Part shown: positions 13,803 to 64,000 of the stretch, piece after piece | How the letters are laid out: every line of letters begins with the position of its first letter | Numbering within the stretch: position 1 is the first letter of the stretch | Assembly (NCBI GenBank): GCA_037501455.1 | Contig: CM074857.1 | Location: 106,487,501-106,551,500, forward strand | DNA: 64,000 nucleotides | DNA from: Lantana camara | Lineage: Eukaryota > Streptophyta > Magnoliopsida > Lamiales > Verbenaceae | Reading direction: 5' to 3' | Position numbers and translations under genes: made by a program | Notes under the pieces: model-generated | The model's input: only the letters and a program-made list of their open reading frames with translations | Databases searched by the model: none | Told to the model about the DNA's origin: nothing

Positions 13803-13834
<32 letters not shown>

Positions 13835-19750: not shown

Positions 19751-20338
19751 TCACCTCTTAGTCTTGAAATTTCATTAAATTTTTTAGTGAAAAAATCGTT
19801 TGCGTCTCAAATTTAAATTTACAACTTAACAATTGAAATATATAACATTTTAAGTTGTTACCCAGACATTCTTTAAAAAAATAAAAAGAAAAAGTTGTTA
19901 CATGAGCTAGCGTTTTAATTCAGATTGCTATCTTCGTTCATTTCTTTACCGGAAAAGGACACATATCACCCACTAATTTTGTCACGTGTCATTTTTCAAG
20001 TTTATTGTACCAAAAACCCTGTGAAATACCTAATTAGCATTTCGAACACTGTGATTTGAAATGTCTCAAAGCGATCCTGTATTAAATTAGCACTCAAAAC
20101 CCTACAACCGTGGTTGTTGTCGCGATCGTAAGGTTAATTTAATACAATCACAGGGTTCACTTTGAGACATTTCAAATCATAGGATTTGAAATGCTAATTA
20201 GGTATGTCATAGGGGTGATCGGAGATAACAATCTGAATCAGAGATGATAGTTCAGGTCGTAAGTAGTAAATTTTCGCATAGTGGTGGTGGTGAATCCTTT
20301 TACATGTTGTTGACATGAGTTTCTGATGAAATGCATAG
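19751..20338 (+). other. Remainder of NPF-1 intron 1
   Basis: Non-coding sequence between the hAT right flank and the exon 2 acceptor (AG at 20337-20338). Without the hAT insertion the intron would be about 0.6 kb, the same size as intron 1 of NPF-3 (593 bp). It contains a fold-back MITE. Confidence 0.7.
19999..20217. mobile_element. Fold-back MITE in NPF-1 intron 1
   Basis: Two arms of about 90 bp are inverted repeats of one another. The left arm has CCTAATTAGCATTTC and GATTTGAAATGTCTCAAAG; the right arm has their complements. The spacer is short and the element encodes nothing. The same family occurs in the BAHD intron at 27458-27727. Confidence 0.7.
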
Positions 20339-22638
20339 GGCCCGTATTCATGTACACCCTTATGGACATTGCACTGTTCAGTGTCTTGGTCACACATCTC
20401 CCATATAAGGACCCCGATCTGCCAAACGCTGCTGTAATTGTGAATTTACATGAAGGAGCTTACCGAATTCTGCTACTTCTCTTGGCTTATATAACTGATA
20501 CGTACTCGGACCACTACAATTTGTTGATTTGGTCCCTCGTGATATCCTGCTCCGTAAACACGAAAACATATGTTTTTCCTTTTTTTTTTTTTTTAATTGA
20601 CTTTTTACAATTTTAACTTCTATCGTTTCTTCTTGAGAACCCAGTTTTGCGAATAACTCTATAGTCAAGTCGGGTAATTCTAGCCTGAACCTGATTTGAC
20701 CAAATTGATGTAACGAAAAGCAAAGTATTTTACACTTGTCATTATGTCGTGTGATTGATGAAAAATTTATGAAGAATGACCAATTAAATGAAAAGTGTAA
20801 TACACTTAAAAATTTTCAAGTCAAGGGCAGTACCTCGATCCCTTTGGCCCTGGTCAGCATATATATGTCAGGCCGATAAATTTAAGGAAAATTTTTTTGT
20901 GTCTCCATGTTGGATATTTCCGCAAGTTGTGGATAGTATTAGAGTTTTGTATGACAAATTATCGTTGAAGACTTCATTTTAATTTGCAGGGATTGTCTCT
21001 ATTTGGTGTTGTAGCTCATTTTGTATCCAAGTCGAGGGATCTAAACTATGGAGTATTTTACATTGCATTGTGCTCCTAACTTTGTCGCAAGCAGCCACAG
21101 GGGCCACTTTGAAAGCATTTCTTGATGCTCAAGTGTTGGCGAAGGGAAGAGCCAACGACAGAAGAAGTGGAAGAAAGAGCCCGCAGCCGTGGAAACTTTT
21201 GGTGGAACGCTGTCTCAGTTTTGGCTGCCATTATTGTTTTCATTGAAGGCAATTTAGAACTGATCAAGTCATTCCGCAATCTTTTGCTCACATTAGGGGT
21301 AGGGTTGGACGTCGCAGTCGTCTGGTTCATTGCCGGGGCTAAATGCTACACGTATGTTAAACCCACCAGGAGTCCGCTCAGTGATGTTGTCTCCGTTATT
21401 TATACAGCAGTGGCGAAGAGAAATGTGGAGTATCCTCAGTCGCCGGAACAGCTTTTGGGAAACTCAAGTGGGCTTGTGCAGATTAGGACTGAGGTTCCTT
21501 GGTTGAGGTGTGTGCCTATGTGTGTTTATCCCCCTTGTTTTTGTAATCACAATATCACTAAACTTCGTCTTCTCCGGGAAACAATGACTGACAATGTATA
21601 TAAAACAGGTGGTTAGATAGAGCTGCAATAGTTTGTAAACGATCAAAAAAGCCAGCAGGAGACAACAACATTTTCACAGTTGACCAAGTGAAGGACGTGA
21701 AGTTCTTGTTAAGGATGCTTCCCATGTGTACGACTTTCCTCACATTCAGTATGGTAGCTGCCGCAGGGAGCACTTTCTTTCTCAAAGAAGCTACAAATAT
21801 CGACAGCCATTTCCCCGTCATCTTCTTCATAATTCTACAGAGACTTGCAGGATTTGTGGTGGCACAAGTATCTGACTACGTTCTTGAAAAACTCAGTAAC
21901 AAAAAGAACAACACAGTACAAAGGTTGATTCTTGTCAGAATCGGCATCGGCATGATATGCTGCATCCTGTGCTGCATCGCAGCCTGGATAAATGCCCTGA
22001 TTAGACACAAACATCCGGAGGGGCATATGAGTATCTATATGCTAATTCCACTGAGTATGTTATTGGGAGTCATGGAGGGACTTGCTGTAGATGGGCTTGA
22101 AAAATTTTCGAATTCTCAGGTTTCGAAGCCGATGATAAGATACTGGCCGCTATTTGGAAGTTCTGTACTGGGCATTGGGAAGTTTCTGAGCGCGATTTCT
22201 ATACTCATCTTCAGAAAATGGTTCAAAAGTGACGTGAATGGTAGTCGCCTGGATAAGTATTACGCTGTCTTGGTATTTATAAGTTCAGCAAATTTGATGG
22301 TGTACTGTTTGGTTGCATATTGGTACAGAGATGTTGGGTCTGCTCAAGAAGATTGGGTTGATAGAGAAAGGGCAGATTCTGCAGGAATAGAAGCAAAAGC
22401 ACAGGAAGATACTCCCCCTTTGTTAAACTCACAATCAGGACAAAAAACTGAAACATTTTTCAGTTATGAAGCACAAACAGTGGTTCATGGTATTAAATCA
22501 AAGGACCAAGTTTCATCTTGGGTTCTCGAACCGGCCCCAAGAGATGATAGTGCAATGGAAGCTCCACTGCTGAACGCGAAACGATCTTTCTCTCGTTCTT
22601 CCAATATAGTCCACAGAAGGTTCAAATCAATGCAATGA

Positions 22639-29262: not shown

Positions 29263-32200
29263 TCAACTCATCGTGTACACACGTCTGTATATTCCCCCGG
29301 ATGAAGGATGCTGCAGAAATGGTGACGGGCCTGAAGGCGGAAATGATGATGATGGCTGAAATGATGCTTTAAGAATAACAGGATCCTCTGTTTCTGCAGT
29401 TTGTTGACCTCTTCCTGGGCTCAACAAAGGAAGGGTGTTTTGTGATTCTGTGATAGTCTCAAGAAGACCTACTGTTTCTATATCGACCTGATCTTCTGCA
29501 AGAAATTTCTCATTGCCATATGAGTAAGCAGCAACGAACACGTAGATGATCAAATTTGCTGAACTTAAGAATACCAAGACGATGTAATACTTGTCCAGAT
29601 GACTCGAATATATATCATGCGTGAACCATTTTCCAAGTATGATAACAGAAAGAGCACTCAGAAACTTCCCAATGCCTAAAACACATTCTCCAAAGGGCGA
29701 GTCATATCGAGTCAAGGACTTAGGAACCTGAGAATCGAAGAAATTCTTAAGCCCGCGTACGGAGAGCCCTTCCATGGTTCCCAGTAATAAAAACTGTGGA
29801 ACTAGTACAAAGATACTCATATGTCTCTCCGGATGAACTCGTATTTTCTTGGCAACTGCCCAGGCGGTGATACAGCAGAGCACACAACATGTCATTCCAA
29901 TCCCAATTCTCACAAGCATCATCTTTTGTACGATGTTCTTCTTTCGCTCGGAAAGCCTTTCAAGATATCTGTCACATTTTTTGCCAACATTAGTCTTGAC
30001 AAATCCCTTCAAACCAATGAAAACTAGCAGGGGAAAATTATGGTTGATATTGATGGCTTGTTGAAGAAAGAAAGTGCTCCCCGTGGCGACAACCATGCTA
30101 AATGCGAGGAAAGTTGCCCACATGGGAATCATCTTCAACAAGAATTTCACTCCGGTCACTTGTTCGACACTGCAAATGTTGCTGTTGATTGTGTCTTCTC
30201 CTTCTTGTACCACAATTGCAGCCTTGTCTAACCACCTGCCATTCAGTCAATCATTATATCAAACGAAAGAACTCAAGAAGTGACGACCAAACTTTTATTC
30301 CATTTTACTATACAACAAACACAACCCTTGTGAATTCAATATATTACAGCGGCCCCCCAAGGATGCATCAGTAATTTATCAAATAACAGTCGTACTTTTG
30401 AAGGGGTGTATGTGTAATTATTAATTGGCCCTAAAAACGAAAGTTCCATATGTTTACACTGTGTAAACTGTAAACCGTTGCAAAAAACAATTGATGGACA
30501 TAGCATAGAATGACATCGGATTTCATATTTCAATTATGTGTTTCATATCTTATTTCACTCACCTCAAACGCTAAATGTATTAATAGACGATTGAAATCAG
30601 AAGACATATAATCTTTTGAATTTTTTTCCATATCATAATCTTTACTTATTTAATCTCAACAGTCTACCAATACACGTGACGTGTGTACTAATATGAAATA
30701 AGAGATAGAAACATAAAATTGAAACAGGGGATACAGAGTCAGCACAAAATATGAATCAACAAACCTCAACCACGGCACATGCGGCAAAATCTCCACAAGA
30801 CTAGTTGAGTTTTGGAATAGCTGCTCTGGAGTCTCTGGATATTCCAAATTTATCTTAGTTAGGGCCCTAAATATCACAGATGCAACATCGCTGAGAGCGC
30901 TGCCAGTTGGATTTGTAAAGCTGTAGAATCTGGCACCCAACAAGAACCATACAAATGCAACATCCATTACAATTGCTGATACCATCGCAAGCAGCACGAA
31001 CGATTTAACTAGAAAAGTCAATAGCATAACAACAATGCTGGCGAGGTAAAACATGGCCATCCACCAGAATTTGCAGCGTTTCTTCGCTCTTTCTTCCTCC
31101 TCTTTTGTGGTCGGGCGCTGATCCAATGCCGATACTTGATCTCCGAGAAACGCTTCTAATGTCACACTTTTTGCTGCTTGGGATCAGCCCCGGTGTAGTG
31201 TAAAGCAATCTATGGTCAACAAATATTTCTTTATGACGGGCCGCAGTGTAATATATCCATAATCCCTGCAAAAGCATTAAGTTGCAGAAGCAATATCAGA
31301 TGATTCATGAAACTTAAATTAAATTTTGAACTTCTTGTTAAAGTTAACACCCTCCGTACAAAATCTATATTAGCTATTTGCGCTTCATCACAATTATTAC
31401 CTGATATCTCTAGTTTACACTTTACCCTTGTCGATTAAACCCTTTTCTTTTTATAAGATTCGAACCCAAATCATTCCTCGGTTAAACCCTTTTTGTTCCT
31501 TCCTTATTTTCACTTTTCTTTTCTCCTTTTCTCCCCTTTTTTACTTTCCCCACCAAATCCCACCATGGCCACCTCCACCTCCAACCCAGCAAACTCACGC
31601 CACCCTCGCCGTCCCCTAACCCCAACTTCAAACTGTATATCAGCATTTAGCTCAAGATTGCAACTTTTATGTCGTCGATTTCATGTGATTCTTAGAGAGA
31701 AAAAGAGCAAATGTATTGAGAAAGAAGAAAATTCAAGATTGTAATGGAGGAGACGGTCAGCCAAGTACCACAACCGAAATGCTATGTGGGTCTAGCTTAT
31801 TAACTCGACCTAACCTAACACTGGGGTAAAGGACGATGCAAATAGCTCAAACAAATGTCCATTTCAGCTTACCGAAATGTAAAGGGTGGTGGACGAAACC
31901 ACCATGAAGTAGAGGCCCGTGTAGGCGTCGGCGACAAAAGCAAAGAAGATCTGGAAAACTGCGAGAGTTCCTTCATATAAATTCACAATCGTTGCAGCTT
32001 TTGCCTCATCGGTGTTCTTCCACTCGTTGGTGAGATGAGTGACCAAGGTAGTGAATAGTGAAAGATCCACAAACCTATGGCTGAATACCAGACCTATGTA
32101 TATATACATACAAACACACATAATGCAGTTCGTCAGGAAATGGAAGACTAATCGTGTGATAATTAAGCACAATATTATAACACAGTACAGTACCTATGGT

Positions 32201-38226: not shown

Positions 38227-41200
38227 TCAATGCATTGAGTTGAACCGCTTGTTGAATCGTCTAGAAAACGTACGAGGAAATGATCGAACCTCACCCAGCA
38301 ATGGATCCGCCGGACCATTTGCGAGGCCTGATGAATTGTGGTCCGTTGATCTAATATCATAATTTGTTCTCTCTCCTCCATCACCGTTGGAATCACAAGA
38401 CGACATTGCCTTTTGATTCTGAGTAACTACCTTTATTTCTAGCAGAGGTTGTGACTGTTTCGAGACCTGTACTTCTTCTTGGACCGCTCCTATATCCTCC
38501 ACCGGAAATCTACCATCTCCATACCAATAAGCAATCAACCAATAAACTACCAAATTCGTCGAACTCATAATTGCCAAAATCGCGTAGTATGTACACAGAT
38601 GACTCCCCTCTATATGATCTTTAAACAATCCCCTCAAACTGAGGATCCAAACTGCACTCAAGAACTTCCCCATTCCCATCACACACTCTCGAAAAGAAGG
38701 GCCGTATCCTGAAATTGACTTCGAAACCTGAGAATCGAAGAAACTCTCGAACCCGTCTCCAGAAAGTCCCTTCATGGCTCCCAGCAAAATAAACTGTGGA
38801 ACCATCCTGAAAACGCTGCCTACAAAACTCTCGTTTATCCATGCAGCGATGCAGCAGAGAACGCAACAGAACATGCCTATACCTATCCTGAAAAGAATCA
38901 ACCTTTGTACAATGTTGTTGTTCTTTTTCTTACTTATCTTTTCAAGAACAAAGTCAGACATTTCTGCGATGACGAATTGTGTGAACCTCTCTAGAACTAT
39001 AAAGAAAAGGATCAGGAAATTCTTGTCAATGTCCTTTGCTTCTTCGAGAAAGAAAGTCTTCCCGGTGGCAACAACTAGACTAAATGTGAGGAAAGTTGCC
39101 CATAACGGAAGCATCTTTAGCAAGAACTTCACTCCCATCACTTGCTCAACTGTGCAAAAGTTCTTGTTGTTGTTTCCGGTGTTTCCTTGATCTTGTACCA
39201 CAATTGCAGCTCTATCTAACCATCTGTTATTTGAAATGACCTTCATTAACATGTATTAATAAATGATAACGGTTGGGTAACAAACCCATCCCACATGGGA
39301 AGATTGGAAGAAATTTATCCAATATATAAACGAACTCCCTCTGACCCGTTATCTCATCCATTAAATTTAACGGAATATCCTGTGCGAAATACAATATCAT
39401 TGGGGAGTTAGGGTTGAAAAATTACGAACTCCCCCTGGCCCATTATCTCCTCCACTAAATTTAACGAAATGTGTGAAATTTACTATTTTATGCAATACTG
39501 TAGATATTGCCCCTAATATGCTGAAATTCAGTGGGTATATGCAATAAAGAGCCCAAAGGTAAGGAGGTTAATGCAAGAACTGAAATTTTTATGGGGTTTG
39601 ATGTAAATACTTAATGATATTTTAATATTTTTATGATAAACTAATTTCATATTGAGAGTTTATGAATGCCTAATATTTTTCTGTAGATATTGATCATTCA
39701 TGTTCAACGTTTCAAATAATTGTTTAAATGACTTTGACGGATATTTATGTGAATTTATTATTACATTTATTGATATTGGTGTGTTTATTATGATTTTCAA
39801 TTTTGAAGGAAAAATTTGATAATGCACTAATTGATATTTGTGTGGTTTTTTTTATATGAATTTTTATTTTGAGGAGAAAATTGCCATGATGCAAATAAAT
39901 AATTTTAAATTAACTTTAAATGAATTTGTACAAAATATATTTAAAACTAAGAAGTAAATATAAGAAGGAATTTATAACTTTCTATCCTATTTCAGAAAAA
40001 TAAATATGCATGGAATATCTAATTTAATTTATATCTATAGATAAAATATAAAATATTAAATTAAATAACAACTTTTAAATACAAAAAAAATCCAAAATTA
40101 ACTAATATTACAATTATATCATCAAACTCTCAGTAAAATTACAATATACCCCCTAAGGGTGTTTTTGGAATGTAAATATGAGTTTGAACGGTGTTATTAA
40201 CGGTAGGTGAAATTTATGAGAGAAAGTGTAAAGGTCAGGGAGAGTTCATAATTTCTAAAACCTTAAGGGGGTAATCTGTAATTTCACCAAAGTTTGGAGG
40301 GGTTGTTCGTAATTATTCCTAATGTATGAACTTATAATTTAGGTTTGAATTGTGGCCCCTCCTACATTATAATATTGGTTCCAAGTATGCATCAAACGAC
40401 TCAATAGTCTTAACCAAAAAAAAAATAAAAATCAAATGACTCAATAGTCTAACTTGGTTCAGTCATACCAACATAATAAGGGAGGCGTATTTTATATTTA
40501 TAATGTGATTGACCTAAAGTATAAGGAAAAATAATCAATCAAATAACATACAGCACCACCAAAATTAGAATGAGCACACGAAGAGTACACACACCTCAAC
40601 CATGGGACACGAGGCAAGAGCTGCTCCGGCGACTCCACATTTCTCTTCACCACCGCCGCATAGATCACAAAAACAACATCATTGAGCGGACTGCCAGTGG
40701 GTTCATCATACGTGTAGAATCTAGAACCCAACAAGAACCACAGGAATCCTACGCCCATCGCTATTGCTGACACCGTCAAGAGCACCCTAAATGATTCTAT
40801 ATGTATTTGCGAAGTTCCAGTTCCGTAAATGGCGACGATGGCGGCCGACAACGAGACTAAGTTCCACCAGAACTTGCCGCGGCTGATGGCTCTCTCTTCA
40901 TCGTATTCTTGTGCTCTTTTCTCATCTTTCGCCAATATTTGATCACCAAGAAATGATTTTAGCGTTACCCGTTTGGCTGATTGTGATAGAGTTATTAGCA
41001 CCAATGCGGGGTAGAATATGCCAAGGTGAAGAACCCTTTCTTTTAAACTTGCTGCAATAACAGATAGCACCAATCCCTACAAATAAAAGTAAAAAAAAAA
41101 AAAGAGGAAATTTAGAACCAGAGGGTGGACCTGAAGTTGGGAATCAACTTTGCATAACACTCAACATATTTGCAACAGTCATGGAATTGCGGAGGAGAAA

Positions 41201-46846: not shown

Positions 46847-48680
46847 GTAGCGCCCCCACTTTGCTGGTAGAGAGCGGCGCCCCAACCCCCACACTGAAGC
46901 ACCCCTCAAGTAATGGTGTGAGCCATCACTCAAGAAATACCCCAGCGAATGGTATGTCCATTAACGATTAACAATAACAGTGTTTAACAATGTGGCTTAT
47001 GCAGCGGAAAATCAGAGTATTTTAAAACTTTTCAAAACATGTGCGTGATGGCATATAAAGAAGCAAGTACTGATCGTTAAGCAGAAGAGACTATTAACAT
47101 TACTATATCAATTGAACATTATCACGGGAGCATATGATAGCAATTGTAGCAGTATCCAAGTAGCAGAAGGATTATTACAAAAGCATTAAAGCAAGGTATC
47201 AATGCAGCCATATAACATATGCAGAACACAAAATAGATTAATAAAGTAAAGTCCTGACTTAAACAAAATGAACACTCTAGAGCTTCAAGATACCTCTAGA
47301 CTGCGGCTGCAAGACCTGGAACCATGAGGCCAGAAAACAGGTAGAGGTATTAGTCAAAGTGACTAAGTGAGGGATATCTTTTAAAAGAAAGTACTTGAAT
47401 TAAACGTTTGGAGTGAAGTTCACAAGGTAAGACCTTTAATGCTTTGCTTTAATGAAGAACTTAAGAATAAGTTCAAGTGATAAAACCCTTTAATGCAATG
47501 TTATAAGAAATGAGAGTTTTCAAAACACTTTCATGAATGCTGTCACATGCGCACACATATGCTATGATTTGGTTCATATGATTTTCATAAAATGGGATAA
47601 GGGTAGGGAACAACTTTGCAAGATATGAACCAACTTTATGAAAACATTGATGCCCGCAAGCTAGATTTCTCCATCCTTACTCCAGAAAACATGACCATTA
47701 ATAGGGTGTCGAACCGAGATCAACAACACCCTAACACATACACACATGCACCATCCTCCACCAAGTTTCACTTCGGGGAGCGACCCCTAGGTGACCATTA
47801 ACCATTGATTTGGGAATAGATTTGCGGTCCATTCCCGACAATTGTCCTGACTTAACCAAACCTCCTGATTAAAGTTGGTGTCAATCGTCTAGTGTGGCGG
47901 CCGGTATTAGTGATGTCGTTGGCGCTCACCTCCCGAGCATCACCTCTACACATAACCGCCGGGCCCATACCATTAACCATTGATTGCTTGCACTATTGAT
48001 GACATCCAGAATAAATCCGAATGTATGAACCATTGAACATATGCATTGAACCATTGATGTAATACTTTGAAAACATGAACCATTGATGCATTACTTTGAA
48101 AACATTGAACCATTGATGCATTACTTTGAAAACATGATCCATTGATGCATTACTTTGAAAACATGAACTATTGATGTTGTACTTTGAAAACATCTACCCT
48201 TGATCAATGAATATGGATAGGTCTGGGTTCTTTGAAGAATCATCCCTATAAAGGGTATTTCAAAACAAGAATGGTAAAGCACTAGGCTTTGAGTTTCAAA
48301 ATAATTGAATCTATAAGTATTCATGGTTCCAGTTGAAAATATTTTTAACCTCACCTATTAGTAACAGTAGGTAGGATAGATTATGCAGTGCCCTGGGGAT
48401 TCTAGTGCTCAACCTTAACTCCTGTAAGTGTGTACTAAGGTGAGCTTAAGAACTAAGACACACTTCTATAACGATGCACATAAACATATAAAACAAGTAC
48501 AGAACATGTAATGACAAGAGAGTAATACCATTTAAGGTATTAGAGAAGGATAACACACAAAGGAATCCTTAAAGTGAGTTATCATTAACGTGTGACTATG
48601 ATCTTACCATAATCGATTAGGAATTAATCAAATTATGAATCCTAAACGTATACCTTAAGGTTATAAAACAAGTCTGATCG
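46847..48680 (-). repeat. Tekay-like LTR fragment, minus orientation
   Basis: Starts TGTAGCGCCCCC on plus, similar to the complement of the end of the 6171-9297 solo LTR. On the minus strand a segment near 47380-47290 (TATCCCTCACTTAGTC then CTCTACCTGTTTTCTGG and CAGGTCTTGCAG) parallels 8755-8815 of that LTR. The other end is not seen. The 3.34-kb inverted-LTR element inserts at 48681, and the LTR may resume at 52022. No gene is credible. Confidence 0.5.
48048..48192 (+). repeat. 30-bp tandem repeat, five copies
   Basis: A unit of the form GAACCATTGATGCATTACTT followed by TGAAAACAT repeats about five times with small changes. It sits inside the LTR fragment. Short ORFs on the minus strand here only reflect the repeat. 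Confidence 0.85.
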
Positions 48681-49387
48681 TGTCAAAATCTGGGCTCTGT
48701 ACGGGGCTGCAGATTAGGACGCTAAATCACCCAAGATATTTGTAATGTGTGGGGAACTCCGACGCTTCCTCCAACTGAAAAGGTAGAACAAACGTGAGCT
48801 CAAAAGCCAAGACGGGGAAGAGTGGGGGTTGGACCCGTTTTGGCACTCCGACGCTCAAGTCAGCTCAAGCTCTCGGTCGAAAAATGCTAGAGTTAAGAGT
48901 TTTGGACGTGAAAAAGAGCTTACCTTTGGCCCTCGCAGGGCGAGGCTTTTATAGGGTGAAGATGGACTTCGCGGGAGCAAGTACACCTCCCAGAAAGTGT
49001 GGATCTGGTTGGGAGGAGAGAGTCTTGGCCTCTGGCCGGAACAGTGCTTTTCCAGCCAAAGCACTGTTCGCCTGCTCCTGCCAGGATCCCTGACACTGTA
49101 CTGAGCGCGGCTGCAATTAATGCGGCCAGCCGTAGGTGGTACTCGCATTGAATGCGGTTGTCCGGTAGTGATCGGGTCGGGATTCCGCTGGGTCGCGCCT
49201 TTCTCTGGAGTGAAAGGAGACCCTAGATCGCGGGAGACCGCCGCCAAACCAGGACTTGTGGTCTTCGGCCAAGTAGTGGGTCGATGATCGCCTAAGCGGC
49301 TCGGTCGCGGAAAGCTTACGAGGCATAGGCTGCTATCTGGCAATGACATCTGGCGCTCAATCAGACTCCCTGATTTTCCCCTTATCA
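48681..49387 (-). repeat. 707-bp LTR, inverted partner A
   Basis: On the minus strand it begins TGATAAGGGG and ends TTTTGACA. It is the inverted counterpart of 51315-52021, with the same length of 707 bp and few differences. TATA-type CTATAAAAGC lies at about 48954-48945 on the minus strand. Its U3 (start) side faces inward and its U5 (end) side faces outward. Confidence 0.8.
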
Positions 49388-50703
49388 TCTTGGCCCTCTC
49401 GGCTTGTTTCTTCTTCAACAGGCGATCCACGGCTTTGGCTCGTCCAGCTACCATTATCGACCCTGTACATGGGGGAAAAAATAAAGTTCAGCGGGCAGAG
49501 TTAGAAATCAATGCGGTAAAGAAAAGATGAAGTCAGGGAAGGGAACGTGCTTGGCCTAAGGGTATTGAGGGTGTAGTTACCCATTCTGAAATCAATGTGT
49601 CTCCGTGTCCCCGGGGCCAACCCCAAGTTAATTAGCAGATGGGTGTTCGTGAAGATCCCTGTATCCAGGGGATGCACCCCCCTCAGTGCAGCTAACAAGG
49701 TGTTGGGCCAGCGTACCGGACCCCTCTCCAACCTTACCTGGGCCACGTCATTCCAGGAGGTGTGTTCTAGGCCGTTCCACCCGTCTGTGTATCTCAGGAA
49801 GACAAACTTCTTTTTCCAATCCACGCCATGAGAGGACTTCTCGGTGTCAAAAATCTTATTCCCCGACCGAGATTGCAACTTCACAAACCCCCTCCTGTTG
49901 GGGGAAGCAGCTGAGTCGACGGAAGCTACGAATAGTTCCGCAAAATGCTCCACGCATTCAACCTGACCCAAGATCTTCATCAAGGACCTGAACGCTGTTA
50001 CCATCGCATGACCGTTTGGGAGCAGTTGAATGGGGCTGATCTGGAGATGATTAAACAGAGACACCTGGAAAGGGGAGAGAGGGAGTCGGAATCCATATTC
50101 AATGGCCTGCAGGGACATGGCGATACACCCTTCAGGTGGTGCTCCCATGTGTTCATCTTTGTTGGGAGTAAAAACTTCGCAACGGTCGTCCAAATCTCTC
50201 CAGCCGGTCAGCCTCTTCAGGGCGGTGGTCCTCTCCGACCCATACACCTCGGCCCTAAACTCGTAATAGTGTTTCTGGCATTTTTGCTGCCCTCTCCTTT
50301 TCGCCTTCCCCTTCTGGGGCCCCCGCTCAACATCCGAAGCTGCGCCGCCGCGACCTTCTTCCTCCAACGACATCTCCTCAATCTCAGCGGCCGTATCCTC
50401 TACAACTTCGTTGTTTACTTCGTCTCGCATTCTACCACCGCTTAATGGGACGGATTCAGCTTCTACAGAACTTTCACTGTCGGCCGATTCCCTCAGAACC
50501 GATCCGGTGGCCTCCTCCGCCGGGTTCCTGAAATACATTGTCACAGTGGGATCCTCCCACCTAGCTCTCCCTGGAGCTTTAACCCCTATGCATTCTATTG
50601 ACACCTCAGGGTCCGACGGAATGTCCCGCGGACCGTAGCTTCTCACTTGCTCATTTGGGGGTTGGCTCTCGGCAGGCCCGGAGACGTTCCTCTTGGGAGC
50701 CAT
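49388..50703 (-). CDS. Tat-element additional ORF (putative gypsy-type transposon domain)
   Basis: The likely start is the ATG at 50703 (MAPKRNVSG); an upstream in-frame ATG at 50820 also exists. Exon 1 runs to 49581. A GT-AG intron (49580-49463) gives exon 2 from 49462, which encodes a basic, coiled-coil-like KAVDRLLKKKQAERAK and runs straight into LTR A. An acidic, Ser-rich N-terminus leads to a domain with GCIAMSLQAIEYGFRLPLSPF and VSLFNHLQISPIQLLPNG. I associate this with the 'putative gypsy type transposon' family, carried antisense near the 3' end of some Tat-lineage elements. Function unknown. The C-terminus is replaced by LTR sequence, so the gene is broken by the rearrangement. Confidence 0.6.
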
Positions 50704-50879
50704 TTCTAGGATGTGAGGGAGAAAGGAAGAGGGGAGAGATCTGGGATTGAAAAGCGTACCTCGAGAATGTGCTTGCGAATTCTCCCGGAGTGCGTTTTGA
50801 CAGAGTCTGGTGGAGGGCAAAAGTCACTTCAAATCTAGGGTTTGCTCTTGTGAAAGGCGTGGAAGGGAGAAAAACCGCC

Positions 50880-50960: not shown

Positions 50961-51314
50961 AACGTGGCCCCTTACCCCCAAAACGGCCGCCTGTAACCGA
51001 ACCTCAGAACCCGTGCTAGTCCCTCAAATTTCAAAAGTGTAATCATGACTCTGACAAAGGGAGTTTCCAGAGTTCCCCGCCCAGTGGGGCACAGTTAGCA
51101 TGCGTGCATGAGGCCACGCCTCATGTCTTGGGTCGAAATATATCTGGGGTCGAAGGAGGTTGGCTCGTCGAATCCTGGCTCGGACAGTTTTCCCAACGAT
51201 CCAGATCACCACAAGATCATCGCGACCCAGGCCTCCCCTTTTTACCCCAGCCAAAAAGCCTTCCCTGAGATCAGACACCACTCTTTTAATGGTGCCCGAT
51301 CTGGGGGGGAAAGA

Positions 51315-52021
51315 TGATAAGGGGAAAATCGGGGAGTCTGATTGAGCGCCAGATGTCATTGCCAGATAGCAGCCTATGCCTCGTAAGCTTTCCGCGACCG
51401 AGCCGCTTAGGCGATCATCGACCCACTACTTGGCCGAAGACCACAAGTCCTGGTTTGGCGGCGGTCTCCCGCGATCTAGGGTCTCCTTTCACTCCAGAGA
51501 AAGGCGCGACCCAGCGGAATCCCGACCCGATCACTACCGGACAACCGCATTCAATGCGAGTACCACCTACGGCTGGCCGCATTAATTGCAGTCGCGCTCA
51601 GTACAGTGTCAGGGATCCTGGCAGGAGCAGGCGAACAGTGCTTTGGCTGGAAAAGCACTGTTCCGGCCAGAGGCCAGGACTCTCTCCTCCCAACCAGATC
51701 CACACTTTCTGGGAGGTGTACTTGCTCCCGCGAAGTCCATCTTCACCCTATAAAAGCCTCGCCCTGCGAGGGCCAAAGGTAAGCTCTTTTTCACGTCCAA
51801 AACTCTTAACTCTAGCATTTTTCGACCGAGAGCTTGAGCTGACTTGAGCGTCGGAGTGCCAAAACGGGTCCAACCCCCACTCTTCCCCGTCTTGGCTTTT
51901 GAGCTCACGTTTGTTCTACCTTTTCAGTTGGAGGAAGCGTCGGAGTTCCCCACACATTACAAATATCTTGGGTGATTTAGCGTCCTAATCTGCAGCCCCG
52001 TACAGAGCCCAGATTTTGACA
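51315..52021 (+). repeat. 707-bp LTR, inverted partner B
   Basis: Begins TGATAAGGGG and ends TTTTGACA. Directly before it is a purine run (GGGGGGGAAAGA, 51303-51314), a good polypurine tract, so it is the 3' LTR of a plus-oriented element. CCCTATAAAAGCC lies at 51747-51759 and is followed at once by a GC-rich hairpin (CCTCGCCCTGCGAGG). The core CTGACTTGAGCGTCGGAG (51838-51855) is shared with the 3079-3888 LTR. Confidence 0.8.
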
Positions 52022-52173
52022 CGATCAAAGTCCATGAAAGAAACACATTTTGAAAAGATATTTTAGATCCCAGGTTTAGAAAACCTAGGTTCAAACGTCT
52101 AAGATCAAAGCTCAAGTTTTATTTCATTTTACTATTCAAAAGCACTATTCACAATTACTATTCTAGATTACTA
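52022..52173. other. Right flank of the inverted-LTR element
   Basis: Starts CGATCAAAGTCC; the left flank ends GTCTGATCG. A GATC is therefore present on both sides, one base away from each LTR end. Phrases like CACTATTCACAATTACTATTC suggest that this continues the interrupted LTR. Confidence 0.4.
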
Positions 52174-54133: not shown

Positions 54134-54570
54134 ATGGTGCACTTCAAAGATATCACTCTTGCCTTCGGAGTCAAACACCTGGTGTTTCTCGACGATAAGA
54201 AGGAAGAACTCGAGAAAGGCACGGCGTTAGTGGTTTGTCCTTGTCTCATCGGACCATATGTGGATAATCGGGGGAAGATGACGGTGCCCTTTCGCATCAA
54301 GGAGTGGTCGGATCGATTTGACTTGAGCAAAGCGTCGCAAGTGTGGGTTCTGCAAGTGGGTCATCATCAACACTCGAACGAACCGACTCATCTACCGACA
54401 CTAGGGTGAAGCATCATCGAAGGCAAGGCAAAGTGGGGAGACGACCTTCGGTTCGATGGCGAGTTCCACTACGTCGGCAGATATTGGGAGTGGATCGAGG
54501 ACATACTCAGCCTGTGCGAGGACAAATTGAAGTCGGCTCAAATATATGGCTTGGTGCGCGCCTTGCTGTG
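54134..54570 (+). pseudogene. Plant mobile domain ORF, N-terminal part
   Basis: The frame reads MVHFKDITLAFGVKHLVFLD, LVVCPCLIGPYVDN, MTVPFRIKEWSDRFDL and VWVLQVGHHQ. After a frame change near 54360 it continues as FHYVGRYWEWIEDILSLCED and LKSAQIYG. This matches the start of plant mobile domain (aminotransferase-like) proteins carried by Tat-lineage retroelements and some host genes. It is cut at 54570 by a solo LTR and resumes at 56083. The biochemical role of the domain is not settled. Confidence 0.65.
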
Positions 54571-55573
54571 TGATTTAAGTTAAACCAATCGTGCAAGTGT
54601 ACACTTAAGATATACGCATAGCACAACAGGATCGTATCCTTTTCTAATCTAAAGACCGGACGAGATCAAGTTGCTTATTAATCTACTAGAACAGAATTAA
54701 AATAACTAACTGAAATAAAATGCCATTAACTACTACCACGCGCGGATTAAATTCAGTAAACTAATTAGGCTGGGGAGTAATAGTTCATACATTCAGGATT
54801 CAATATAATACTCGTTTGACAAGTGTAATTCTACAACCTAGTCACTTAAATTTGTATTATCCACTCTCAAGGTATAACCAAGTGCTCAATTAAGCTCAAC
54901 GTTGCTCTCGCAATCATTAATGAATTAATTAAATCAACAAGACCAAGACTAGTGCAAATCAAATTCTAGCGGCTCGGCATGGAAAGCAATTTATCGTTGC
55001 ATAGATTAAGAACCAAAACTCTTTGCATTCCTAAAATCTACTAGTTATGAAAACCATCTCAATTACCATCAATCTCTCGATTCTCCGGTAATTCTAGATT
55101 ATGCTACAGGTGATCAGGCCATCGCACTTCAATTCAAATCAGTTTTCAAACTAAGAATTAACACAAGTCATTCAAGCATCATATCAAACACTTAACATGC
55201 ATTCATCATCACTCCCCTAGCCCTAGGGAATTAGCTACTCATAATTAAATCAAAACTCATAAAACTAAAAGAAATTGCATTAAAGAAATTCATGTTCATC
55301 AAGTCTAAACAAAGTCTCATAAACCAAACTCTAAACATTCAATAAACTCTGGAAAAACAAATCTAACATGAAAAAACGAATTAAAACCAAACTTAAAGGA
55401 ATTAGTTTGATAATTAAAGCAATAAATAAAACCGAAAAAATTGAAATTGCTTAAGAACTCGATCCTTTCGTCCTCTCGAAATTCTCTGAAAAACTCTTCC
55501 AAACCCTGTGTCTCTTCTCCCAAAACTAGGTCAAAAACCGAAGAACAACTCTTCAAAAGGACTCCAAAACAAA

Positions 55574-55582
55574 CTATAAATA
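55574..55582 (+). promoter_or_regulatory. LTR TATA box
   Basis: CTATAAATA in the 1.5-kb solo LTR, about 30 bp before the expected transcription start. The first hairpin begins 29 bp downstream of the box. Confidence 0.5.
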
Positions 55583-55610
55583 GCTCCAAAAAATTTATCT
55601 CGCCGACTCC

Positions 55611-55912
55611 GGTAACGGGCGTTACCATTTCATGCACAAACTGTGTTAACGCCCGTTACATGCATGAAATCGTATTTGCGCTTTTATAAGTGGTAACGGG
55701 CGTTACCACTTTCCTTCTGCCCAGGGGTAACGGGCGTTACCCCTCCTGCGCTAAAAATCTCTTCCTACTGCCTCTGGTAACGGGCGTTACCAGAGTTGTA
55801 CTGCCAGAAAGTAATGGGCGTTACTCCCATAATTCGTCAAAAGGTATGTGCTTGTGTCCGTTAACGGGGGTTACCAATCATGTACGTCCAAGGGATAACG
55901 AGAGTTACTCAT
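55611..55912 (+). repeat. Array of eight GTAACGGGCGTTAC palindromes (predicted hairpins)
   Basis: Core copies lie at about 55612-55625, 55645-55659 (inverted, one extra T), 55691-55708, 55727-55741, 55777-55791, 55811-55824, 55860-55874 and 55893-55909. The last three are increasingly degenerate. Stems extend beyond the core with complementary flanks that differ between copies: AAGTGG/CCACTT (55688-55711), AGGGG/CCCCT (55723-55744) and CTCTGG/CCAGAG (55772-55795). Copy 2 is framed by ATTTCATGCA and TGCATGAAAT. Spacing is 32-50 bp. Function unknown. Confidence 0.85.
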
Positions 55913-56082
55913 TTTTCCTCCAAAAATGCATGAATTCGCCTCGTTTCGCCGTTTCTTAACTCTAACCTCCAAAACACATAAATGGAGCAAAATAAACACA
56001 TAAACGCATCAAACGACACAAAAATATACTCTAATCAACGCTTAAATCCATGCGAATTTCACACTCAACACGCCTCACTGTT

Positions 56083-58320
56083 CATCTACGTTCCTTAACT
56101 CGGAGATCATGAAGGCATTCTGCGAAGCGTGGTGTCCGACAACCAACACTTTTCTGACGTCGAATGACGAGTTGTCCATATCACTTTGGGATTTGCATGC
56201 TTTGGCGGATCTTCCTATGACGGGTCTTCTCTACGACGAAATGGATCCCGATGTAAAGGAGCTCACCGAGAGAGGTGAATTCGGGAGGAGATATGCCTCC
56301 TCTAGTTGTCAGTACTTGTTCTACACCTACCACTTCTTGGCGGTCAAGTTTCTATTGAGGCGTAGGTGTGTTTTTGGTGCAAAGAGGTGAAGAAGTATGT
56401 CCAACCATCCCCTAGCAAGAAAGACGAGTCGACATACAACCCATTTGGTGACTTCGGACCTTATGAAGCTTGGAATGCTGCAGAGGAGAGGCTATTTACC
56501 AGACTTGGACTCGAGGGGAATAAAAAAGAGAATACTTATTTGGTGGCATTCATAGCTTGCTGTTTCTTCGTTCTTCTAACAGAAAGCATCGGCTCGATAC
56601 GCCCAAGTACTTTCAAGATGGCGAACGTCATAGCAAGCTGCTTCAAGGTTGACTTGGCTATTCCGGTTTTAGCAAGCATCTATCGTGGTTTGGACAAGAT
56701 ATCAGCATCCGCCCGACCGACTCGAGTTCAAGCTCCATTTCCTGTCCACTTCGTTTACGGCTGGCTAGCACACTACTTCCAGATGCATTACCAGGTCTAT
56801 CAAGACATCCATGGTCCGAAAATGATGCGGTTTTTCGGTGAGGGAGGGGCGAAGGATTATGATACGAGGGAGGCCCGCAAGAAGATTCAAAAGGCGGAGT
56901 TCGTGGCTTGGAACTGCAACGCGATTATGGCCCACAAATAGTTCTGGTTTATTGATAATGTGAAAGGCTCAGAGATTGAGCATAACTATTTTATGTCGAT
57001 TCGATCTTGCTACCAGTCTTTGACATAAGGGGATCACTTCATCATCGAGCCATACAGACCCCACCGTTTTACTCGTCAGTTCAGATTTTATCAAGTGGTG
57101 CCCGGGGTTTTCAAGGATGATTTTCGCGATGCTCGTCTAGACTAAGGACTCAACCATTGGTGTGTGTGCACTTCATCGAAGTCTATGGATGGAGTAGTCT
57201 TTCCCCCAATGACTACGACTGTTAAAAAGTTATGTTCTAAGAGCTATATGGAATAGTGGTCAAGAATTTACAGCAGCTTCTTCGATGACAACATTACGAA
57301 GTTAATCAATTTGAAAACCGTCCCTATTCAAGTTGAGAAAGTCGACCTGATTGAAGGAGAAAAGAGAAAAACTCCCCCTATTCCTTCGGTTAAGAGTGAA
57401 AGTGGCACTGCAGATTGCTATTGGAAGAGGCCGAAGAAGTGTGAAAAGCTTTTGGCTGACAAGTCTGGTGAAAAGGTAATTTTAGCCTTCTTCTTTTCAT
57501 TGTTCTTCAATACTTTTCTATCTGCTTTCATTAAGCATCGAACGTGTTTCACTTGTAGTTGGAAGAGGAGCCTCTTAAAGCTGATGATGTGGAGTCTCAA
57601 GGATCGATCCCCGGGCCGATTCTTTTAGAGACAAGTCTTATTTCTAAAGGAGACATGTAATCAGAGACACTTATGATATCCGAAGAAAAGCAAGCGCCTC
57701 AGCGTCTCGCAACCTCAGTTTTCCAAGCATCCACATTCGTCGCAACTCATATGCAAAAGTTTGTCAAGATGATGTGGAGTAATCTTCTCCAGAAGATAGA
57801 GAGCACTCTACTTGACTCCAATTCATCCCTCAAGGACGAAGTTTAATCGGTGTTGAACACGATTAAGGGTTTTGATGAGCCTTTTATTTCTGTCGTTGAG
57901 AAGTCATTGGCAATTTTGTTTGGCAAGGTGACTGCTTATGATGTGGAGAGGTCTGCAGCTTTTGGAGAGACTTTGAAAGATTGACTTTCTCAATAGTTGA
58001 GCAAAGCAAGAGATCGACTTGTCGGTGCCCAAGCCGATGAAACAGCCGAAGCGGGTCAAGTTAAGGCCACCAAGAAAGCATTAAAGAGCATTGATATGAC
58101 ACTTAACAGCCTGTAGAAATAGAGGACATACTTATCGAGTTCATTGAAGCGACATTAACTCCTTTATCACAACACCAAATCTCTCGTCCAGACTATTAGT
58201 AAAGAGATCGAGACCCTTGAGAAAACTCCTCCATCAGATGGCAAGGCGCTTGAAGTTGTGAAAGATACACTGGCACTTCTGAAGGTGGCTAAGGAAGACT
58301 CGAAGAATTTGTGCCTCTCC
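56083..58320 (+). pseudogene. Plant mobile domain ORF, main part (degenerate)
   Basis: Continues the N-terminal piece with EIMKAFCEAWCPTTNTF, ISLWDLHALADLPMTG, FGPYEAWNAAEERLF, LTESIGSIRPSTFKMANVIA and FVYGWLAHYFQMHYQVY, then GEGGAKDYDTREARKKIQKAEF. These are typical of plant mobile domain proteins. Stop codons follow (from TAG at 56939-56941), with recognisable text continuing to about 57300, then a Lys/Glu-rich tail. It lies antisense to the Tat polyprotein at 59022-63675, as expected for an additional ORF of such elements. Confidence 0.7.
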
Positions 58321-59021: not shown

Positions 59022-60314
59022 CTACCCGTTCATGGGCCCAATTCTCAAACCATCTTCGGCGACCAACCTGTAAGCGCTGCTTGTGTAAACTTCCTTCGCA
59101 ACATACAAACCATCCCATTTGGAGGTGAACTTATTCCTCGTTCGATGAGTAGTGATTATCGGTCTTCTCACAGCAAGTACCAAATAACCAACTTGGAATG
59201 AACGAGTTCTCACCTTTATGTTGAATGACCTGGAGAGATGAGCTTGATAGCACAAGAGTCTTTGTTGAGCCTCCAACCTCTCTTCTCATTGAGCTCCTCT
59301 AACTCTTCAAGTCATAGGAGAGCATTTTCATCTTGGGTTAAGTCTTCTTGAATCGTTGTCCTTAGCGATGGAATTTGTTATTTAAGAGGAATAACGGCTT
59401 CGACACTGTACACCAATGCATAAGGGGTCGCTTGGGTAGGTGTTCTATAGGTGGCTCAGTAAGCCCACAAAGCTTCTCCAATCCTTTCATGCCAGTCTCA
59501 TTTTGACTTGGAGACCAACTTCTTCAGCAAACTGCATAGAGTTATGTTGAAAGCTTCGACAAGACCGTTGGCAGTGACGTTATACATCGAAGACTTCTTT
59601 TGCTTGAATCCGAACTTCAGACAGAGTTTGTCTATCAGGCTATCACTAAATGGCTTCCCGTTATCTGTGATGATATAACAAGGCACGCCATAGCGGTAGA
59701 TGGTGTTCATTCGGATAAAGTTAGCAACATTCTCCTTCTTCACTTATTTTAGAGGAACTGTTTCCGCCCACTTAGAAAAGTAATCAGTCGTAGCCAAAAT
59801 ATAGAGGTGACCGACAGAAGACTTCGTTATTGGGGCCTACCACATCCAAACCCCAAGCATCAAAAGGCCACGAGGTAATCGTCGGGTGCAACGGTTCGGG
59901 CGGTTGGTAAATGAAGTTGGCATGAAATTGGCAAGCTTGACATTGCTGCATGTATTCCATGTAGTCTTTCACTATCGTTGGCCAGTAGTATCCCATTCTC
60001 TTTATGCGAAAGTGTAGCTTTGGGCCTGATTGATGAGCACCGTAAACTCTAGAATGTGCTTCTTCCACGGCTTGGTTTGCTTCGTCTTCGCCCAAACACC
60101 TCAAGAAGACTCCATCAAATGAGCGCCAATAGAGTATATCCTTAAAGTAGATATATCGAGCTGAGTGCCGTCGCACATCAACTTTCTGCCGTGGGTCATT
60201 GGACAACTTTTGATACTTGAGATAATCAATAAGGGGTTGTCGCCAATCCTCCTTTTCGACTTTGAGCATTTCAACCACGTGATTTTTTTTCTTCTTCGAA
60301 GTCTTCATCATCAA
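59022..60314 (-). pseudogene. Tat-type integrase
   Basis: Minus-strand frames (60314-59784, 59743-59498 and 59276-59022) give an HHCC zinc-binding region (AHSRVYGAH and CQACQFH), then the catalytic core with WGLDVVGP, IITDNGKPF and NGLVEAFN (D, D and E all present). A C-terminal part has GYLVLAVRRP and FTSKWDGLYV. Integrase inserts element cDNA into the host genome. Stops and frame changes split it, so it is inactive. Confidence 0.8.
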
Positions 60315-60531
60315 AGATTGGAGGTATATCCCAATTCTTACAAATCGACACTCGAGTTTCCTTCTCCGGCATTGCTAACGTAGAGGCAAGTTTCACTACT
60401 GCATTCGCTTAATTGTTCTATTTTCTGGGCACGTGTTCGATCGTCACATCTCCGAGCCATCTTATCAGCATTTTAGCGTAGTTAACATAGGGGATCAATT
60501 CAGGCTTTTTGACATCGTACGAGCCCTCCAA

Positions 60532-60855
60532 TTAATTGACCACTAACTTCGAGTCTCCATACACTCTAAGGTGTAACTGCTTTATGTCGACCGCCATTTT
60601 CAACTTTAGTATGAGGGCTTGATATTCGGCGACGTTATTGGAACACTTTTGTATTAGGGTGAAGGAATATGGTAGAACCTCTCCGTCGAATGTGAAGAAT
60701 ATGACCCCAGCGCTGACTCCTTCTTTATGTGAAGCTCCATCAAAGAACATCTTCCAAGGAGGAGTGACTTCGACTAGAAGTGCGTCTTCGACCGGCAAGT
60801 CGTTGGACATTTCCCATTCGGTGGGTATAGGATGGTCCGCCAAGAAATCAACCAT
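60532..60855 (-). pseudogene. Tat-type RNase H
   Basis: MFFDGASHKEGVSAGVIFF, SNNVAEYQALILKLKMAV and VYGDSKLVVN carry the D, E and D residues of retroelement RNase H. It lies between reverse transcriptase and integrase, in the normal Ty3/gypsy order, and is preceded by a degenerate connection region with stops (61153-60856). Confidence 0.75.
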
Positions 60856-61153
60856 AACATATCTTTTTACCTACTTTTGGGGGATGTAAACAATCTCGAA
60901 CTGCTAAATTTAGAGATACCATCTTGCGAGTCTATCCGAAAGTACCAGCCTCCAACGGATCGTTCTTGAGCTGCGATGTAGAGAATCAATGGCGTCCCCG
61001 AGTAGGTGCAACTAAGACAGGTGGCTTCATCAAGTACGTCTTTATACTCTCAAAGGCTTTGCGGCACGCTTCATCTCATTCGAAAGGAACACCTTTCTTC
61101 ATAAGCTGACTGAATGGTTGACACCGACCGGCGGCTAGGTTTGAGATGAATCT

Positions 61154-62082
61154 TCATATGTAAGCCAACTTTCCTTGCAAAATTTTCAGGTTGTGGATAT
61201 CTCGGGGTTGTGGCATTTTCAAGATTGCATCTATCTTTGCTTGTTCGATTTCAATACCTCGATGGCAGACGATGAACTCGAGGAACTTTTCTGATGAAAC
61301 TCTAAAAGCACACATAAGCGGATTCATCCGGAGTTGGTATCTTCTTAACCATTCGATGATTTTCCTTAAGTCTTGTAGATGATCTTCTCGCTTCTTGGAC
61401 TTTACTACCAAGTCGTCCACATAACATTCGATGTTCTTGTGAAGTAGATCATCGAAAATTTTCTGCATCGCCCTTTGATACGTGGCACCTGTGTTCTTCA
61501 AGCCAAAAGGTATCACCTTGTAGCAGTATACCCCTTTAGGGGTATGAAATGCCATTAATTCTTCATCTCGGGTGTCATTCGTATTTGATTATATCCCGAT
61601 GAGCTATCCATGAAAGAAAGAGCTTCAAAGCCCACGGTAGTATCGATCATGAGCTCGATTATAGGCAGTAAATAATCATCCTTCGGGCAAGCAATATTTA
61701 GATCTCTAAAATCGACGCATACGCTAATTTGCCCATTCTTCTTTCTCACCAGCATTATGCTGGAAATCCGCGTGGGGTACTTCACTTCTCGAATGAACCC
61801 AACTTCGATGAGCTTTTTTACCTCGGCTTCGATTAAGAAAACCAGGTCCGGTCGGAATCGTCGCTGAGCTTGTTTCACGGGACAAGTACCTTTCTTTACG
61901 GAGAGGTGACATACTGCAACTTTTGGATTTAGCCCCAACATTTCTTTGTAGGACCATGCGAACACGTCCCTAAATTCGAGTAAGAGTTCAATATATGCTT
62001 TCTCATGTTTGTAGACAATTGTCTCCCACCTAGCTTTCAGCATTGAATAGCATGAGACGATCAGATTGGTGCACTGTTTCAT
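61154..62082 (-). pseudogene. Tat-type reverse transcriptase
   Basis: Two minus frames (62082-61555 and 61555-61154). The first has ISSIMLVRKKNGQISVCVDF, RDLNIACPKDDYLLP and SSGYNQIRMTPE. The second has MAFHTPKGVYCYKVIPFGLK, NTGATYQRAMQKIF and YVDDLVVKS, the catalytic YVDD. A stop codon and frame change at 61555 divide them. The enzyme would copy element RNA to cDNA in particles. Confidence 0.85.
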
Positions 62083-62322
62083 ACGAGACGGAACTGCACT
62101 TTGAATTTTTGGAAAGCCTTGTACCTTACGTCTCCTTAGCCAGTGGTTAGCTTTGGCTCTTTTGGGCGGACTGAGCCTATCGAAGACTGATCTTTGCCGA
62201 ATCTTTTCTCCATTCTCAACAAAAGTGTCTTCGGTTGATGAGAGTTCTTCAGATATACAGTTACTTGTCGCTCTGTTTATGTCGATTCGAATAGGGTCTT
62301 ACGTAGCAAATCCGAGTCCTAC

Positions 62323-63675
62323 TCATGAGTTTGTAGAGACATTGCCATCTTCTTTCGAGGACCTCGACTTCGTTTCTTTTGCCTTAGCAGTTGGAATAAG
62401 TGTTCCCAACTTAGACTTCTCTTGAGGGTTGCACCCGGCTTTAACGAGAAGTTTGTATGCTTTGGGATCGTACTCCTTTGTATTTTGGAGTTTGGTTACT
62501 TCTCCGTGCTCCATCTTACTTCCTTGGATCAGACGAATGAATCTATTGAGTGGTGGAGAAGGAGGTTTAACAACGTCTAGTTTGGTGAGGGGCAACGTCA
62601 GCCCTTCTAGTGCCTCGGACTTTATAAGTAGTGATCTGTCCTTTTCTTGGCAATCGATCGAAGTTGAGGCTCCGACTTTATTTTCACCTTTGCTATCATC
62701 TTGTGGATCAGGGACTTTTTTTCCTTTGATTTTTTCCACTTCTTTACGGCAATACTTTGCATGGGTGAAGTGGGCTTTTACCTCGGTGAAAGGTTTACTA
62801 TCTCTAAGAACCTTCTTTATCATATCCTTCCGACAATACTTGAAACATTGATGCCAAGTAGATGGGATAACTCCATTTTCATGTAGCCAAGGCCGTCCTA
62901 GAAGCATGTTGCATGAAGTTTTTGCGTCTATAACATGAAACAGTGCGCTTGATAACATGTCGTCTATCAATAGTTTTAGCCAGAAGATGCCGAGAGCTCT
63001 TTGTCCTCCTTAAATGAAGCCTTGGATCATCAGACGACTGTTTGCTAGTTCATCCTTTGGGATTCCTAACTCGTTCATCACCCTCAAAGGTAAGATATTG
63101 ACTGCAGATCCCCCATTGATGAGCATTCTATTCATCTTTTGTTTACGAGCATATCCTGTCACAAATAGTGGCTTGTTGTGGGGCTTTGAACCGAGTAGTA
63201 AGTCTTTATGGGAAAAGGTCATGGCTACTCTACATTCATTGTCTTTGGAGTGAGTTTTTTCGGGAACCTCTTCTTCACTTATCATCAGGCAGGTCAAGGT
63301 TGTTATAGCGTTTGACGTTGTACTAACATCTTCAAGCGCGATCATTCCTTGTCGTGTCAACTGCATCACCTTATCTTTGAATATGAAGCAATCATGGATT
63401 GGGTGTCCCAACAGACGATGATACTTGCAATACTTTGGATCATCAGCCTTTCCAGCTTTGTTGGGCCTCTTCATTTCGGGTAACTCGATGAGGTTTGCCT
63501 TGAGTAGATCGTCAAAAATATCAGAGACATCAGAGTCCTTGAAAGGGTATTGCTTGGCTTGTATCTCTACTAAGGACAAATTTTTGAATGTTCTCTCCTG
63601 GAAGATTTCCTTTCTTTCGTCCGTCTTGTCGTTCATCTCGGCCCGAACTTTGACAGGAATTGTGTTCATCGCCAT
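62323..63675 (-). pseudogene. Tat-type gag end, knuckle and protease
   Basis: Frame 63675-63010 contains a CCHC-like knuckle YCKYHRLLGHPIHDC and a protease motif reading MLINGGSAVNILP, where the catalytic Asp is Asn. Frame 62970-62323 continues with SALFHVIDAKTSCNMLLGRP, the C-terminal protease flap region, and a Lys/Glu-rich linker. It joins upstream gag beyond the window end and RT on the other side. The Asp to Asn change and stops show it is dead. Confidence 0.75.
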
Positions 63676-64000
63676 GGATTTTTAGCTTGGGGCTTAGTAA
63701 AGGGTTTGCCCCCTTTCCTGAATTCTTACTTTTCCCTAGGCCTGCAGAACTCTTGGACTGGTGGTCCTTTCACTCTGGTAGCAATCATGCTTTACTCCAT
63801 AACATGTGCTCGAGTAGTAAGCGTTTCGAACAACTTGGGTTGAATTCCTTAGAGGATGTAGCGGAGACCCCAATGCATCCCTTGAATACACATTTCAATT
63901 GCCGAAGCCTCTGACAGTCGATCTTGGCAATTCAGACTAAGGTTTCTCTATCGATTGATGTAGTCAACGACATGCTCTTCTTTCCATTGTTGAGAGTTGG
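63676..64000 (-). pseudogene. Start of the degenerate Tat gag region at the window end
   Basis: Presumed continuation of gag on the minus strand, interrupted by stops. It runs out of the window. Confidence 0.35.

Follow-up and report, generated by a model that had tools for sequence, protein, structure and literature searches.

The U3 regions of the Tnt1 and Tto1 LTRs carry tandem enhancer repeats. Sireviruses have a short Met-tRNA primer-binding site and repeated polypurine tracts. In 13 Sireviruses, palindromic repeats have been described within the LTRs; most lie in the first (upper) half and precede the TATA box (available sections of PMC2829016). According to the same sections, their core is CGG-CCG with one published exception, Tnd-1, and a poly-C integrase signal is found in 17 of 21 elements, at a distance of about 21 bp from the 3' end of the LTR. 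In maize, small RNAs concentrate on palindrome-rich regions of Sirevirus LTRs (Bousios 2016, as reported in PMC10760457 and PMC5311732), and Ty3 elements are generally without such a peak (PMC10760457). In the accessible text of the latter source, LTR palindrome structures are said to attract silencing, and the reason why elements keep them is an open question.

The window analysed here, a stretch of 64,000 nucleotides of Lantana camara DNA, contains an array of eight short palindromes with the core GTAACG-GG-CGTTAC (GTAACGGGCGTTAC-like):

55607..55630, plus strand: palindrome copy 1 (core 55612-55625), exact core, one further arm pair
55641..55664, minus strand: palindrome copy 2 (core 55646-55659), one core change on the reverse strand, central GG read as CC
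55688..55711, plus strand: palindrome copy 3 (core 55693-55706), AAGTG/CACTT arms, 11-bp stem with 2-nt loop, left arm the outlier among siblings
55722..55745, plus strand: palindrome copy 4 (core 55727-55740), 10-bp stem
55772..55795, plus strand: palindrome copy 5 (core 55777-55790), CTCTG/CAGAG arms, 11-bp stem, right arm the outlier among siblings
55806..55829, plus strand: palindrome copy 6 (core 55811-55824), one core change
55856..55879, plus strand: palindrome copy 7 (core 55861-55874), two core changes
55890..55913, plus strand: palindrome copy 8 (core 55895-55908), three core changes

The first-pass annotation had reported eight palindromes, one of them inverted, and the core positions bear this out. 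When both strands of the window were searched for the core with up to two mismatches, 11 matches were found at 7 places; 100 shuffles gave a mean of 0.10 and none reached 11. The cores span 55612-55908 and start 34, 47, 34, 50, 34, 50 and 34 bp apart, so that the repeated close spacing noticed at first stands and its range of 32-50 bp is corrected to 34-50. The alternation of 34 with 47-50 bp divides the array into four diverged units, each about 84 bp long and containing a pair of palindromes. Copies 1, 3, 4 and 5 have exact cores, and the rise from one to three changes in copies 6 to 8 agrees with the decay toward the plus-strand 3' side described earlier.

The three units starting at 55693, 55777 and 55861 were compared without gaps in an 84-bp register, unit 1 being excluded for its spacing of 81. 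Core identity was 0.96, 0.82 and 0.79, and spacer identity 0.38, 0.46 and 0.45. The mean spacer identity of 0.429, against a shuffled mean of 0.254, was reached in none of 2,000 shuffles. By these values, the spacers share an old common origin, and conservation has been much tighter in the cores. Invariant in all eight copies are TAA with the G after it, a single G of the loop, and GTTA; they form two facing TAAC/GTTA half-sites. CpG counts per 200 bp peak over the array (12-14); the observed/expected ratio is also high elsewhere in the LTR (1.36 and 1.91), and the array is therefore not unique in this respect. An inverted 14-nt repeat, TACCATTTCATGCA, flanks copy 2 at 55623-55636 and 55661-55674, and a near copy of ATGCATGAAATCG directly follows copy 8 at 55926-55938.

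The array sits in a solo LTR with a 5-bp duplication, inserted in a degenerate host gene:

54564..56070, minus strand proposed as sense (inferred strand): solo LTR of an LTR retrotransposon, from its borders, the empty site and the lack of a partner
54559..54563, no strand: target-site duplication CGCCT, left copy, identical to 56071-56075
56071..56075, no strand: target-site duplication CGCCT, right copy, from the boundary-pair test
54134..56938 (widest extent 54134-57640), plus strand: degenerate plant-mobile-domain (PMD) gene region into which the solo LTR is inserted, from PF10536 matches and homologues

The insert measures 1,507 bp and has TG...CA ends (54564 TGCTG ... CAACA 56070). Among 63 TG/CA boundary pairs, comprising all pairs at most 30 bp from the edges, one showed a perfect 5-bp duplication, for a chance expectation of about 0.06 at 1 in 1,024 each. 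Five base pairs is the dominant length of LTR-retrotransposon target-site duplications in the available part of PMC6911290. A partner LTR was sought in the 64-kb window and none was convincing, the best other match covering 45 bp at 78% (E 0.006); the element is thus a solo LTR, with its duplication and empty site and with neither internal region nor partner LTR.

After excision of the LTR in silico, the host frame reads Arg-Ala-Ser-Leu-Phe-Ile-Tyr across the junction. The joined host piece matched 9 of 12 candidate proteins at E <=0.001 with 49-65% identity (Sesamum species and Erythranthe tilingii among the sources). All nine homologues contain PF10536 (plant mobile domain) and the Ala-Ser of the empty site, both residues being invariant in the 10-row alignment. 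PF10536 matched the two gene pieces at 1.9e-4 and 1.2e-6 (21.2 and 28.5 bits, below the curated Pfam cut-off of 34.9). A by-eye guess of a 3-bp CTG duplication as borders was rejected because it would leave Ala-Leu instead of the Ala-Ser of the nine homologues. The LTR had been proposed before without borders, and the borders at 54564-56070, the duplication and the empty site now confirm it.

The PMD gene, on the plus strand, is antisense to a decayed gypsy-type pol (59784-63681, minus strand) with reverse transcriptase, RNase H and integrase at 59784-61588. According to PMC11963269, as far as its text was available, Retand elements have antisense ORFs downstream of pol; the term 'mobile domain' is absent from its main text. 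Neither the accessible portions of this Retand literature nor those on LTR ends (PMC4963935) offered lineage clues. Two reading frames in the LTR (minus 55320-55655 and plus 55690-55956) found no protein relatives on search, Rfam matched neither the LTR (E up to 1) nor, at gathering thresholds, the window, and four strings from the LTR end had no relevant match in a full-text literature search.

Both orientations of the LTR were considered with respect to the promoter-like site next to the array:

55575..55582, no strand: near-symmetric TATA-like site, TATAAATA on plus and TATTTATA on minus, 29 bp from the copy 1 core

On the plus strand, TATAAATA ends 29 bp before the core, as originally reported, and the box CTATAAATAG is the better, perfect TATA motif and precedes the array. 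Five AATAAA occur on the plus strand of the LTR, and a search of its minus strand for AATAAA, AATAAT and AATGAA found none; the better TATA and all AATAAA matches favour the plus strand. Read on the minus strand, TATTTATA lies 29 bp past the last core and is one base off the published Sirevirus motif. In LTR positions, the array then occupies 163-459 with TATTTATA at 489, and on the plus strand 1,049-1,345 of 1,507. The Sirevirus placement, as given in the sections of PMC2829016 at hand, is matched if minus is the sense strand, which would put the array in U3. On this positional comparison, the minus strand is probably the sense strand. A copy of TATAAAAG lies on the minus strand at 55681-55688, inside the array between copies 2 and 3. 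The minus-strand 3' end of the LTR presumably resembles Athila-type LTR ends. A primer-binding motif was searched for in viral contigs, where the 12 loci examined included no plant element, and a full-text literature search with the primer-binding string gave nothing relevant among the matches listed.

On the strength of the plus-strand TATA box, the first-pass annotation put the array into the 5' leader of the RNA made from the element. With plus as sense, transcription would start near 55605 from TATAAATA at 55575, and the array would be a structured 5' leader whose RNA stems are selected. This arrangement is favoured by two plus-strand features, namely the perfect CTATAAATAG, which precedes the array by 29 bp, and an AATAAA at 55991. 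The position of the array at 1,049-1,345 of a 1,507-bp LTR is unlike the Sirevirus precedent. The plus RNA of the array folded better than 100 shuffles (z -3.98), in line with a leader and with the folding check recommended at the outset; the minus RNA (z -3.57) and the minus single-stranded DNA (z -4.55) also folded better than 100 shuffles. Such stability is expected of palindromes as such. It is therefore not specific to the plus RNA and does not indicate which molecule matters.

The arms of copies 3-5 are complementary beyond chance, on one array of eight related copies. Beyond the core, copies 3, 4 and 5 have five, four and five arm pairs, and copies 1, 2, 6, 7 and 8 have one, none, one, one and none. 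The summed run length was reached by 96 of 40,320 whole-flank permutations (0.24%). In column shuffles within the two palindrome classes, which left out copy 2, the sum was reached in 483 of 200,000 (0.24%) and three copies with at least four arm pairs in 527 of 200,000. When all pairs within 8 nt were counted, which is a looser measure, the departure from expectation was weak (1,928 of 40,320 permutations). In the 8-row, 24-column alignment, the share of paired cells is 76.1%, a value reached by 13 of 500 shuffles, and the covariation score of 0.214 was reached by 7 of 500 shuffles (1.4%) and in no slid register of the six compared. Cells with changes on both sides numbered nine (1 of 500 shuffles), further pair types ten (31 of 500) and pairs with a change on both sides five, the last being weaker (43 of 500); all these arm and covariation values describe eight related copies in one decayed LTR. 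The earlier observation that at least three copies have differing yet complementary arms thus holds for copies 3, 4 and 5, beyond most shuffles.

An ordinary decayed tandem repeat, its arms pairing by chance, would agree with units that are clearly tandem duplicates, with long arms in only three of eight copies and with the weak result of the loosest pairing measure (1,928/40,320). The stricter measures, reached in 0.24%, 0.24% and 1.4% of shuffles, and the far better conservation of cores than of spacers make it very improbable. Four places in the 64 kb carry stems of 9 bp or longer whose loop is no larger than 6 and whose arm contains three or more G+C: copies 3, 4 and 5 and 20168-20193. With nested rows counted, nine such rows were observed against 0-4 in twenty block shuffles.

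Repeats of larger size were also recorded in the window. Two inverted arms, each about 720 nt long and 99% complementary to each other (48675-49396 / 51306-52027), surround a 439-aa minus-strand ORF (49501-50820) that matches Pfam Transposase_28; they are a recently formed or recently converted inverted repeat. A 4.2-kb tandem duplication (11307-15506 / 15535-19732) has 99.4% identity, with DUF659 and hAT dimerisation ORFs in the first of its copies. Three ORFs matching POT family PTR2 lie in diverged repeats at 21688-22638, 29263-30213 (minus) and 38227-39252 (minus).

To find which arm had changed, the 5-nt arms were compared with those of sibling copies in the same palindrome class. The left arm of copy 3 matches siblings 1, 5 and 7 at 1, 2 and 1 positions and its right arm at 4, 2 and 3. 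In copy 5, the left arm matches siblings 1, 3 and 7 at 4, 2 and 3 positions and the right arm at 2, 2 and 2. From these matches, the left arm of copy 3 and the right arm of copy 5 depart from their siblings, each now complementing its partner. Copy 4, compared with copies 6 and 8 (left 0 and 4, right 2 and 2), has no clear outlier arm. The core of copy 2 differs mainly by CC for GG, with the 34-bp spacing kept. The arms of copies 3 and 5 look like one-sided rewriting, on the basis of two copies.

This asymmetry bears on two explanations that invoke selected stems. Compensatory point substitutions in a selected hairpin or cruciform, of DNA or RNA and in either orientation, would yield the covariation counts and the permutation results with no template switching. 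They should alter both arms, whereas copies 3 and 5 changed in one, and the remaining copies tolerate lost arm pairing; we regard this explanation as unlikely. The structured 5' leader would also be served by covariation that exceeds shuffles. An arm pairing of 0-1 in five of eight copies is odd for a conserved stem, and in copies 3 and 5 the departure from the siblings concerns one whole arm and not the other. On balance the leader is doubtful, as is its premise of a plus-strand promoter, which has the better TATA and the AATAAA on its side and the Sirevirus placement against it. Since one arm can be rewritten with no selection for an RNA stem, of the two causes first offered for the paired changes, selection or a palindrome-generating process, the second is favoured and the first is not required.

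Quasipalindromes are known to become more perfect via template switching (PMC7202029, in the part available). The likeness to that mutagenesis is that an imperfect inverted repeat is perfected, one arm being copied from the other. The published system consists of E. coli reporters and other cited systems, while here the process would be deduced from two LTR copies and possibly took place at reverse transcription.

Palindromes could also persist mainly through host small-RNA biology, as proposed for maize Sireviruses, hairpin transcripts being diced and feeding silencing. Small RNAs are indeed enriched on Sirevirus palindrome regions (PMC10760457 and PMC5311732, accessible text), and three hairpins of 10-11 bp are present here. 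Stems of this length are short for miRNA-like precursors. Moreover, silencing harms the element, so that the conservation of the cores is left unaccounted for, and we find this explanation distinctly unlikely as the main cause. Small-RNA production from the hairpins may, as a host response, coexist with the explanation that we prefer.

In this preferred explanation, to which we assign a probability of about 0.5, the array is a promoter-proximal U3 array of paired protein-binding half-sites, tandemly duplicated, whose arms were matched by template switching. Conserved half-sites, fixed spacing, diverged spacers, tandem duplication and a nearby TATA-like site fit a putative upstream protein-binding array. 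With the minus strand as sense, the array would lie just upstream of the promoter and the best-kept copies would be promoter-proximal. Each core would offer a facing GTTA/TAAC pair of half-sites to a putative host protein. MYB-type factors prefer AAC/GTT cores, and our guess is that the binder is such a factor. The copies would have multiplied by tandem duplication because they strengthened transcription. Within an imperfect palindrome, a polymerase or the reverse transcriptase of the element would have switched template and rewritten one arm to match the other, and the GG-to-CC loop of copy 2 would be an event of the same kind; RNA pairing need not be selected. The packaging, dimerisation or translation roles suggested initially are without support here. 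A regulatory role was also what the Sirevirus authors proposed, with a call for reporter tests (PMC2829016, available sections).

As a more tentative extension, the array may be a fossil record of palindrome self-repair, in which hairpins of U3 make the polymerase, whether reverse transcriptase or replicative, switch strands each time the element is copied, an arm is overwritten by the complement of its partner and the loop can flip, as in copy 2. If so, regulatory palindromes of plant LTRs would be renewed by mutation bias and would look covarying with no selection acting on the structure of an RNA. Covariation seen in arrays of this kind, should template switching indeed rewrite the arms, would then be no evidence for functional RNA stems and would be a trap for structure searches in transposons.

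Compared with known systems, as far as the available sections of PMC2829016 describe them, the array shares with the RM boxes of Sireviruses (Ty1/copia) the many short CpG-rich palindromes per LTR near a TATA-like site, the conserved cores with divergent flanks and a length of about 300 bp. The CGG-CCG signature is absent, since in GTAACGGGCGTTAC CGG faces GCG and not CCG, and the poly-C signal was not found either, no run of at least four C being present in the last 100 nt of the LTR in either orientation. The 84-bp units of two palindromes also differ from Sireviruses, and on the minus strand the array starts at LTR position 163, slightly earlier than the 200-400 of Sireviruses. With the palindromes of maize Sireviruses (Bousios 2016, through the accessible text of PMC10760457 and PMC5311732) it has in common the clustering in the regulatory part of the LTR, the ability to form hairpins and fast evolution around conserved cores, the core itself being different. 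The enhancer repeats of Tnt1 and Tto1, likened here by description only, are also repeated, partly symmetric binding sites in U3, and symmetry is mentioned for Tnt1 box I in the same sections of PMC2829016.

The core string, in either orientation, had no match in a full-text literature search, and a literature search on LTR palindromes of Athila and other plant elements returned the Sirevirus work and nothing on this core motif. In collections of prokaryotic and viral sequences, two cores 15-45 bp apart were found in no genome contig and no viral contig. The string GGTAACGGGCGTTACC was met in 20 stretches of viral contigs with one match each, which was taken as chance. Palindrome arrays in plant LTRs are already known; what differs here is the core, the two-palindrome units, an LTR without the Sirevirus end signal and the one-arm pattern. 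An LTR with a different core and without that end signal would widen the known pattern of palindrome arrays.
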